The notes under the pieces: model-generated
Database searches by the model: none
What the model saw: only the letters and a program-made list of their open reading frames with translations
Told to the model about the DNA's origin: nothing
Part shown: positions 51,436 through 54,193 of the stretch, piece by piece
Position numbering within the stretch: position 1 is the first letter of the stretch
Layout of the letters: each line of letters begins with the position of its first letter
Program-made: the position numbers and the translations under genes
DNA from: Bacillota bacterium
Lineage (GTDB): Bacteria > Bacillota > Clostridia > Lachnospirales > Bianqueaceae
Reading direction: 5' to 3'
Assembly: GCA_017442735.1 (NCBI GenBank)
Contig: JAFRZE010000068.1
Span: 1 to 64,000 of the forward strand
DNA: 64,000 bases

Positions 51436-51462
51436 TTATATCGCACAGAATTCTGGGCAAAA

Positions 51463-51559
51463 ACAGGGGTGCCTTCGGGCTGAGATGCCACGCTCCCGGT
51501 CAGTTTGACCGGTCACGGCAAACCCTCGAACCTGATATGGATCATACCAGCGTAGGGAG
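51463..51559 (+). ncRNA. TPP riboswitch (THI element)
   Basis: The conserved blocks CAGGGGTGCC, GGCTGAGATG, CCCTCGAACCTGAT and CCAGCGTAGGGAG are all present, with a variable P3 stem in between. It senses thiamine pyrophosphate. The downstream intrinsic terminator (51591-51630) gives a transcriptional off switch. Its target is thiT. Confidence 0.96.
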
Positions 51560-51590
51560 TTTTTTCAGAATCATATATACTGATCAAACG

Positions 51591-51674: not shown

Positions 51675-52502
51675 ATGTCTTCCAAAAATGTTTCCATGAC
51701 ACAGCGGCTGGTCCTTTCCGCGATGCTGATCGCGATCGCCGCCGTCCTGTCCATCATCAAAGTCATCGACCTGCCCTACGGCGGTTCAGTCACACCGGCC
51801 TCCATGCTGCCACTGGTCATCATCGCCTACCGCTTCGGTACGCCCTGGGGCCTGCTCTGTGGTTTTGTCTATGGCATCATCCAGCTTTTCCTGGGCATGG
51901 ACAACTTCTCGTATGTGACCGGCGCCGCGTCCGTGATCGCGCTGGCGATCTTCGACTATCTGCTGGCCTTCACGGGTCTGGGCTTCGGCGGCATCTTCCG
52001 TAAGAAAGATTCCTCTTCCCAGCCGGCCGCCTTTGTTTCCGGCATCCTGCTCGTCAGCCTGATCCGCTATCTCTGTCATGTGATCAGCGGCGCGACCGTC
52101 TGGGCAGGCCTTTCCGTCCCGACAGCCGACGCGCTGCGCTATTCGGTCATCTATAACGCGACCTACATGCTGCCAGAACTGCTCGTCCTGCTGATCATCG
52201 GGTTCTATCTGTCGAAGACCTTCGACTTCGGTTCCGCTCAGCTGAAGCTGGCCGCGAGAGACGAGTCCGATTCTGCCGGTCGTCCACTGGCGATCGCCGC
52301 GGGCCTGCTGCTCGCCGGCGCCGGTGTGTTCGATGTAGCCGCGATCTTCAGCAAACTTCAGAACGCGGAGACCGGCGAGTTCGATATCACCGGCTTCTCT
52401 CAGGCGCCATGGCTTTGGATCGCGATCATCAGCGTGATCGCCATCGTCGTAGCCGTCGCCCTGCTAATCCTGAGAAAGAAAGTCATAAAGAAAGCTGCAT
52501 AA
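51675..52502 (+). CDS. thiT: Energy-coupled thiamine transporter ThiT with extra C-terminal helices
   Basis: A 275-residue membrane protein. The first about 190 residues fit the ThiT S component of ECF transporters (six helices; LPYGGSVTPASMLPL and YSVIYNATYMLPELL line the thiamine site). About 85 residues more, with two further hydrophobic helices and a basic end (LRKKVIKKAA), are unusual for ThiT. TPP riboswitch control supports thiamine uptake. The start has AAAGGAG. ECF module genes are not in the window. Confidence 0.93.
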   Translation: MSSKNVSMTQRLVLSAMLIAIAAVLSIIKVIDLPYGGSVTPASMLPLVIIAYRFGTPWGLLCGFVYGIIQLFLGMDNFSYVTGAASVIALAIFDYLLAFTGLGFGGIFRKKDSSSQPAAFVSGILLVSLIRYLCHVISGATVWAGLSVPTADALRYSVIYNATYMLPELLVLLIIGFYLSKTFDFGSAQLKLAARDESDSAGRPLAIAAGLLLAGAGVFDVAAIFSKLQNAETGEFDITGFSQAPWLWIAIISVIAIVVAVALLILRKKVIKKAA

Positions 52503-52506
52503 CAAG

Positions 52507-52543
52507 AAGGAGTCATAGCGAAAATGCTATGGCTCCTTTTCCA
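52507..52543 (+). terminator. Terminator of thiT
   Basis: aaggagtcatagc (52507-52519) pairs with gctatggctcctt (52526-52538), one wobble, then TTTCC. Confidence 0.82.
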
Positions 52544-52574: not shown

Positions 52575-53375
52575 TTAGTCCATCTGAATCCGGTGTTCTT
52601 TCTTCCAGACAAGTTTCGCGAGCAGCACCATCGCTACTGCCAGCAGGCAGATGATACCTTCGATCGCAAGGGTAGGCACGTCCAGCCCGGCCGCCACAAC
52701 GCTGATCCCATCGACCAGCAGGTGGCAAAGGATCGCCAGGAAGTAGAGCCCGATCTTCCGGTTCTTCACGCCGAACCATACGAGGACCGAAAGGCTGAGC
52801 TGCAGGACGATCGCGAACAGCCGCTCGAGCATTCCTACCAGGAATACCCAGGAAGATGTTTCTGCCAGCTGCGTGAAAACCGCTTCGACCTGGCCAAGGT
52901 ATTCTTCCGGCAGGCCGGTCGTCAGAAGCGCCGCGTTACCGGTATTGATCATGACCGAGTAGATCAGGTTGTTGACCATCGTCATGCCCAGCAGCACCAT
53001 GCATTCGATCCCGCCGTGGCCGGCGCCGTACATCAGCGCGTTGGCATCGTTCGGCAGGTATTTTTTCAGGAGCGTTTTCATAGCGATCAGCCGTCCGGTC
53101 TCTTCGAAGAGCCCGGCCATCAGGCCGCCGTACAGGGCGTACAGCCAGATGTTGGCCTGGATCGCCTTGCCAAAGGACGTGAGGAACACCACCTGATGGA
53201 TCAGCCTTTCCACGATCAGCGCGAAGACCAGCATGACTGCCATACCGATAAAGAACGGCGGGAAATTCGCTTTCTTCTTCACCCGCAGCCAGATCATCAG
53301 CGCGATCGGGACCAGAAAGGCCAGACAGAGAGATATGGCCATAAATACGATCGACAGGGCAGGAACTTTACTCAT
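52575..53375 (-). CDS. YhfC-family intramembrane glutamic protease
   Basis: A 266-residue polytopic membrane protein. The family pattern is FEETGR (about 91-96), GHGGIE (about 118-123) and a late HLLVDG, matching YhfC-type (PF10086-like) putative intramembrane peptidases. About seven helices are predicted. It overlaps the upstream MerR gene by 8 nt, so it is translated with it. A role in cutting a membrane-bound partner is inference. Confidence 0.85.
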   Translation of the reverse strand: MSKVPALSIVFMAISLCLAFLVPIALMIWLRVKKKANFPPFFIGMAVMLVFALIVERLIHQVVFLTSFGKAIQANIWLYALYGGLMAGLFEETGRLIAMKTLLKKYLPNDANALMYGAGHGGIECMVLLGMTMVNNLIYSVMINTGNAALLTTGLPEEYLGQVEAVFTQLAETSSWVFLVGMLERLFAIVLQLSLSVLVWFGVKNRKIGLYFLAILCHLLVDGISVVAAGLDVPTLAIEGIICLLAVAMVLLAKLVWKKEHRIQMD

Positions 53376-54120
53376 TTTCTACCTCCAGCGCAGTCTCAAT
53401 GCAGAAACTCTTCTTCCCGCAGTGCGGGCAGGTCAGTTTCCTGGTCTTCATCGTGTGCGCCGCCCACAGGATCTCTTTCTTCTTTCCACGGAATACTTCA
53501 TGGCATTCCGGGCAGATGAACGCGGCATTTTTACAGTAGTACCGGAACATGATCACGGTCATCATCGCGACGATCACCATTCCCGCGGCGAACGGCCACC
53601 AGATCTTTGATGCAATCGCGTAGATCAGGGTACCGTATTCGATCATTCCCATGATAACGGCTGTTATGATCATCGTTCTGATCATTTTCTTATGCAGTTC
53701 TTTGTTTTTCATTTGACTGGCTATGTCTTGCATCGTGTTTTCTGTTACGGTTTTGGCGGATCGGATCTCGCTCAGGAACTCTTTTGCCTGCTCAAGCTGC
53801 TGCTTCCTTTCGGCCGTTTCCTCTTCCAGGGTACGGATCTGTTCCTCCAGGACGGTCTCGATGACTTTCGTCGCGTTTTCTTCCTTTTGGATACGCGCGA
53901 TATTGTCGATCGACATGCCCAGAGAACGAAGATAGGTCAGCAGCTGAAGTTTTCTGACGTCCTCCCGGGTATACATCCGGCGGCCGCCTTCCGTAAGCTC
54001 ACTCGGCTCCAGGATCCCGCGCTGGTCATAATACTGAACCGTGCGGACACTGACCGAACACATCTTCGCGATCTCCCCGGTAGAGAACATTTCCATCTCT
54101 TTTTCCGCCTTGTCTGACAT
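53368..54120 (-). CDS. Membrane-anchored MerR-type regulator with zinc ribbon
   Basis: A 250-residue regulator. The MerR helix-turn-helix is at about 11-80 (STGEIAKMCSVSVRTVQYYD), followed by a long coiled coil (about 85-125), two membrane helices (about 145-190) and a C-terminal four-Cys ribbon (CPECHEV and CPHCGKKS). The start at 54120 has AAGGAGG at 7 nt; the frame continues upstream without support. With two helices, both the DNA-binding part and the ribbon face the cytosol. It overlaps the YhfC protease gene. Confidence 0.85.
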   Translation of the reverse strand: MSDKAEKEMEMFSTGEIAKMCSVSVRTVQYYDQRGILEPSELTEGGRRMYTREDVRKLQLLTYLRSLGMSIDNIARIQKEENATKVIETVLEEQIRTLEEETAERKQQLEQAKEFLSEIRSAKTVTENTMQDIASQMKNKELHKKMIRTMIITAVIMGMIEYGTLIYAIASKIWWPFAAGMVIVAMMTVIMFRYYCKNAAFICPECHEVFRGKKKEILWAAHTMKTRKLTCPHCGKKSFCIETALEVENE

Positions 54121-54193
54121 AGCTCTTACCTCCTTACACGCCCAATATAGCGTATGACGCTGCGTCACAAGCAATACCTGACGCAAGGGGATT

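Follow-up and report, generated by a model that had tools for sequence, protein, structure and literature searches.

The DNA analysed here comprises positions 1 to 64,000 of contig JAFRZE010000068.1 (assembly GCA_017442735.1), from a Bacillota bacterium (Lachnospirales; Bianqueaceae) with a 2.8-Mb genome. We refer to this 64,000-nucleotide stretch as the window. The pair shown (positions 52,575-54,120) consists of a gene for a MerR-family regulator followed by a yhfC gene, both on the reverse strand (Table 1). The two genes overlap by 8 nt (ATGAGTAA), and both the yhfC start and its ribosome site (GGAGG, 53382-53386) sit inside the MerR gene. A longer, 295-aa open reading frame extends the regulator upstream to a start that lacks a ribosome site, and the start giving 250 aa is preferred. 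Downstream, a terminator-like hairpin is common to the operon and the convergent ECF thiamine transporter gene thiT (51675-52502), which is preceded by a TPP riboswitch (window 51455-51575).

Table 1. Features of the regulator-YhfC operon in the window, and of related loci (positions given as locus:range)
Feature	Position	Strand	Basis or remarks
MerR-family membrane-anchored regulator, 250 aa	53368..54120	-	ATG 54120; AGGAGG 54129-54134; Pfam MerR_1; AlphaFold2 and Foldseek MerR matches
MerR DNA-binding domain, aa 12-80	53881..54087	-	Pfam; model
Coiled-coil helix, aa 83-121	53758..53874	-	AlphaFold2 secondary structure
Membrane hairpin: TM1 aa ~149-171, turn, TM2 aa ~175-198	53527..53676	-	AlphaFold2; alignments
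Cytosolic beta zinc ribbon, aa 199-244	53389..53526	-	AlphaFold2; alignments
YhfC-family predicted intramembrane metalloprotease, 266 aa	52575..53375	-	PF10086, E 3.9e-49; AlphaFold2
YhfC motif 1, E91-E92-x-x-R95	53091..53105	-	Invariant in 70/70 paired and 52 diverse YhfC
YhfC motif 2, H120-G-G-x-E124	53004..53018	-	Invariant in 70/70 paired; in 52 diverse, H120 nearly and E124 fully
YhfC motif 3, E184-R185	52821..52826	-	Invariant in 70/70 paired; in 52 diverse, E184 nearly and R185 fully
YhfC motif 4, H218-x3-D222	52710..52724	-	Invariant in 70/70 paired and 52 diverse YhfC
MerR-type promoter of the operon, TTGCTT-GTGACGCAGCGTCATACGC(19)-TATATT	54144..54174	-	Pattern comparison across loci
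Perfect dyad TGACGC-A-GCGTCA (TGACGCAGCGTCA) in the spacer, predicted operator	54155..54167	-	Sequence
Terminator-like hairpin common to convergent thiT	52514..52531	-	Consensus scan only
XRE hairpin-ribbon regulator with YhfC	L074:7521-9012; L164:2369-3842; L305:3921-5420; L306:5045-6568
Hairpin-ribbon - yhfC - merR operon behind the MerR operator	L303:5291-7226 (G522); L304:5033-6959 (G623)

In the AlphaFold2 model of the regulator (pLDDT 80), a MerR domain is followed by a long coiled coil, a membrane hairpin and a beta zinc ribbon. Pfam MerR_1 covers residues 12-80 with an E-value of 4.5e-20, and a Foldseek search with the model matched MerR proteins (E 5e-06). The N-terminal winged helix and coiled coil are those of the MerR family, and the presence of a DNA-binding domain and transmembrane helices in one chain, seen in both Pfam and model, makes the protein a transmembrane transcription regulator. 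An earlier reading of this DNA from its sequence only had proposed MerR DNA binding, a coiled coil, two membrane helices and a zinc ribbon, and every one of these parts was recovered. The regulator scored under the curated cut-off of all NCBIfam MerR equivalogs. Trp174 of the hairpin is nearly invariant; in the ribbon, C203, C206, C231 and C234 are invariant and C240 is nearly so. The hairpin turn in the model is about 3 residues long, giving an extracytoplasmic loop of ~3-6 residues and no site-1 domain. According to the model, both chain ends should be in the cytosol, and the protein should have no extracytoplasmic sensor domain. The zinc ribbon may be structural; a role in metal sensing would be a guess. 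The hairpin-ribbon of a close relative matched no Pfam family above cut-off, and the module seems to represent a domain-swapping family that has neither a name nor a Pfam entry.

The product of the second gene scores 167.6 bits against PF10086 (curated cut-off 24.2), a family formerly named DUF2324. DUF2324 has been noted as PrsW-like (PMC3482391). The AlphaFold2 model of YhfC, a monomer like that of the regulator, was built on an alignment of 52 YhfC proteins and has a pLDDT of 95.7. Its best folds in the PDB are human APH-1B and APH-1A (Foldseek probability 1.00, TM 0.54-0.62, E only 0.02-0.05). A profile search also ranked APH-1B first, below significance (E 0.053), and a sequence search for solved structures matched no YhfC. 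The window's YhfC keeps all nine predicted catalytic residues (E91, E92, R95, H120, E124, E184, R185, H218 and D222), and the motifs that contain them are invariant in 70 of 70 paired YhfC proteins. These Glu/Arg/His motifs and the CPBP-type, APH-1-like fold are those of the YhfC family, in agreement with the earlier description of a membrane protein with Glu/His motifs encoded with an 8-nt overlap. On this basis the window's YhfC is predicted to be an active glutamate-type intramembrane protease. CPBP proteins have been linked to bacteriocin immunity or signal-peptide processing (PMC9298176), and the papers searched contain no YhfC protein with a characterised function. The same genome encodes a second YhfC-like protein (G000:C34:91116-91718; L080:5054-5896; Pfam E 3.5e-09), which lacks the catalytic Glu pair in the alignment, and weak-scoring YhfC paralogues recur across most genomes of the window's family. 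Elsewhere, YhfC overlaps or adjoins an SdpI/DUF1648 protein in an SdpI-like immunity layout (L075, L159 and L163), with an ArsR-type gene preceding in L075.

The regulator gene is preceded by a conserved MerR-type promoter, TTGCTTGTnACGCnGCGTCATnnnnTA, whose 19-bp spacer carries a dyad. A dyad inside such a spacer is the known layout of MerR-type activated promoters, and the spacer here is within the 19-20 bp of the MerR family. The element is found at the same position in 64 of 68 YhfC-paired loci with at most three mismatches among 22 specified bases, compared with a minimum of seven mismatches in shuffled upstream sequences. Regulators with CPBP or ABC partners, and those without a partner, have it upstream as well. 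At two or fewer mismatches, the nine family genomes in which it occurs contain exactly one copy each, always before the regulator and none elsewhere, and 74 of 80 named loci likewise have exactly one. Allowing three mismatches added four scattered sites in 19 genomes, and a reversed-pattern control also gave four. The single strong site per genome suggests that the circuit controls only itself and the protease; a wider regulon could still act through weaker, missed operators. This conserved promoter of the regulator-YhfC operon is new here.

Conservation of the pair was followed in three samples: named genomes searched by means of the hairpin-ribbon alignment, 19 genomes of the window's family, and 392 genomes drawn evenly across the order. 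The search of named genomes found at least 504 relatives, of which the best 80 were used downstream; these are the closest ones and no random sample. Most come from Clostridia of gut and rumen, and a few from spirochaete, Erysipelotrichaceae and Lactobacillus bins. Among the 78 evaluable loci of these 80, YhfC is downstream of the regulator in 67, with a spacing of exactly -4 nt in 64 of them. The sequence-only reading was to fall if the pair were rarely adjacent in relatives, and it passes on this point. In five further loci a PF02517 (CPBP/Rce1) protein replaces YhfC, at -4 or +2. The CPBP partners keep EExxxR, and the main CPBP group also keeps FAAxH. Within the window's family, ten of 19 genomes have the regulator, directly followed by YhfC in nine; in the tenth (G003) the locus is interrupted by a contig end. 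Many gut bacteria carry the two-gene cassette, and this conservation of gene order indicates that the MerR-YhfC pair is a conserved functional unit. Such a pair had been put forward as undescribed, and none is described in the papers searched, a weak sign of absence as most subscription journals were outside reach.

The association is not strict in either direction. The regulator occurs in 24 of the 392 order-level genomes and adjoins YhfC in only nine, all from the window's family, and most YhfC genes in the order adjoin unrelated genes. The remaining regulators of this sample are accompanied by CPBP (G343), by PLDc_N and/or ABC transporter genes (three genomes) or by a 4-TM protein (two genomes), or have no clear partner. 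The same type of regulator with PLDc_N and/or ABC transporter genes downstream was seen at L172, L174, L265, L266, L316 and L317, an arrangement resembling yxlEFG within the sigY operon of B. subtilis. Since no conserved gene comes after YhfC in 63 loci, YhfC is the only shared output. In some lineages, alpha/beta hydrolase genes recur shortly downstream of YhfC (L144, L148, L151, L153 and L157; L140 and L142), which suggests another functional link with YhfC. Carriage as phage or plasmid cargo was considered and rejected: the one viral contig has an unpaired regulator, and none of three plasmid records has YhfC, two of them having ABC transporters behind the regulator.

Quick-build trees of both proteins indicate that the MerR-protease pairing arose several times. 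In the YhfC tree, MerR-paired proteins occupy four separate positions, and well-supported branches force at least four changes. These positions are a main clade; the window's protein with that of G006, inside an otherwise unpaired YhfC clade; L271 with L273; and L204, inside an XRE-paired clade. The MerR tree implies five switches of CPBP partner, at least two of them forced; in this tree the window and L181 are joined by long branches, which calls for caution. YhfC and CPBP together give only four matches in the window's 2.8-Mb genome, and the repeated pairing is therefore not a matter of chance.

The hairpin-ribbon is also found outside MerR proteins. XRE regulators with a homologous hairpin-ribbon of the same Cys spacing lie directly before YhfC in G003, G249, G474 and G689; many further XRE hairpin-ribbon proteins occur without YhfC. 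In G522 and G623, a 116-117-aa hairpin-ribbon protein without a DNA-binding domain is followed by yhfC and then merR. The operator precedes this three-gene operon and therefore serves the operon, not just merR. The free-standing hairpin-ribbon and the XRE pairings hint at a protein-level contact between hairpin-ribbon and protease. We tentatively suggest, with doubts outweighing confidence, that hairpin-zinc-ribbon modules, whether attached to MerR or XRE or standing alone, could be dedicated substrates or adaptors of the YhfC/CPBP glutamate-type intramembrane proteases. Regulated intramembrane proteolysis would then have a new class, one that works without an extracytoplasmic domain and in which DNA-binding domains are swapped.

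Our best explanation is that the pair forms an autoregulated two-gene membrane-stress cassette with the protease as its output, and we consider this account about equally likely to be right or wrong. The sequences themselves give the architecture, the gene pairing, the invariant catalytic motifs, the conserved promoter, the one operator per genome and the exchange of the output gene; for activation, signal, proteolysis and substrate we infer the following. The membrane-anchored MerR would bind the dyad in the spacer of its own promoter and, upon perturbation of the membrane hairpin or the cytosolic zinc ribbon, would activate this promoter in the manner of MerR proteins. The output would be the co-translated YhfC, a putative glutamate-type intramembrane protease acting on membrane substrates such as an antimicrobial peptide or a damaged membrane protein. 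Feedback of YhfC on MerR may also occur. The same promoter and regulator are found ahead of CPBP or of PLDc_N and an ABC transporter, which suits an exchangeable effector. Counting against a pure output role, the partners are mostly drawn from two protease families, although in that role any membrane effector should serve; the hints of contact between hairpin-ribbon and protease also count against it.

The sequence-only reading had gone further and proposed a regulated proteolysis switch in which MerR itself is cleaved. YhfC would cut the MerR hairpin and free the DNA-binding domain as an on-switch; in a variant that we add, the cut would remove the activator as YhfC accumulates, a negative feedback. 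The membrane tether that this scheme needs is present as the two-helix hairpin. The scheme is also consistent with the repeated pairing with proteases of one superfamily (four places in the YhfC tree, at least two forced CPBP changes in the MerR tree), with the retention of every predicted catalytic residue in paired YhfC and with the recurrence of the hairpin-ribbon, on MerR, on XRE or alone, next to YhfC. Gly, Pro and Gln/Glu residues of TM1 are conserved in paired regulators, the window keeping only the Glu; however, they are similarly conserved with ABC/PLDc_N partners, where the hairpin as a whole is kept just as well, and this signature was dropped as a specific mark of a protease substrate. 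The regulator also occurs without YhfC in most other families of the order. With so short a loop in the model, there is no domain outside the cytosol to be cut first, and conventional site-1/site-2 cleavage does not match the protein as modelled. Nor would freeing the MerR domain give it a wider regulon, since the genome's one strong operator is that of the pair. Mirror-tree distance correlations, in which the DNA-binding domain served to control for shared history, revealed no co-variation with YhfC specific to the transmembrane or ribbon segments: in the main clade the partial r was 0.275 for TM, 0.253 for the DNA-binding domain, -0.008 for the ribbon and, highest, 0.457 for the coiled coil. 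Thus the conserved unit, the predicted active protease partner and the CPBP replacement of this proposal stand, but no sequence test favoured MerR cleavage, which we regard as possible and rather doubtful.

YhfC could instead be a sensor or scaffold, like SdpI with SdpR: by binding the hairpin-ribbon it would keep MerR at the membrane and leave it uncut. SdpI confers immunity and sequesters SdpR (PMC1626106), and some CPBP-fold proteins, for example LnsB and APH-1, are thought to be non-catalytic (PMC7387801). YhfC proteins of a neighbouring clade follow SdpI-like genes in three genomes (G004, G303 and G351) and an ArsR-type gene in one. However, the invariant E/E/R/H/E/E/R/H/D residues point to catalysis, and the regulator presumably also works with unrelated partners, making this role unlikely. 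It is very improbable that the two genes are co-transcribed neighbours of no functional meaning. Operons of autoregulated regulators often contain diverse genes, and the partner here does vary; against this stand the adjacency in 67 of 78 close loci, the CPBP replacement at the same spacing and the rarity of YhfC and CPBP in the genome. A chance neighbour is ruled out by that adjacency, the four tree positions and the single shared promoter site.

The pair offers a testable physiological entry to the YhfC family: a regulator that repeatedly recruited a YhfC or CPBP protease, a defined promoter and one target operon. If the protease does act on the hairpin, the pair would represent a glutamate-type intramembrane proteolysis route acting on a transcription factor.

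The cassette shares features with several known systems. With the MerR-family one-component activators CueR, ZntR, BmrR and MtaN it has in common the winged-helix MerR domain, the coiled coil and an autoregulated promoter with a dyad in a 19-bp spacer; its C-terminus is a membrane hairpin and zinc ribbon, whereas theirs is a soluble ligand or metal domain. YhfC has the PF10086 assignment, the EExxR, H, ER and HxxxD motifs and the APH-1-like fold of the YhfC/CPBP superfamily (ABI, Rce1, PrsW, APH-1), and differs in being translationally coupled to a membrane-anchored regulator. As in PrsW-RsiW and S2P proteolysis, a membrane-tethered regulatory protein is encoded near a membrane-embedded protease; unlike those systems, it has no extracytoplasmic domain, anti-sigma factor or known second protease, the circuit has a single target and cleavage of MerR is only putative. 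Transmembrane regulators form an established class, and in some cases a membrane partner is encoded with them (PMC10269533). ToxR/ToxS and TcpP/TcpH likewise combine a DNA-binding protein in the membrane with such a partner (PMC10269533); there the partner is a periplasmic stabiliser, whereas here it is a predicted protease and the regulator carries a MerR or XRE domain and a cytosolic zinc ribbon. SdpI/SdpR is an immunity operon whose membrane protein is also a signal transducer (PMC1626106). Like the present pair, this B. subtilis system is a two-gene autoregulated operon of a membrane protein and a DNA-binding regulator; here the regulator has a membrane anchor of its own and is a predicted activator.
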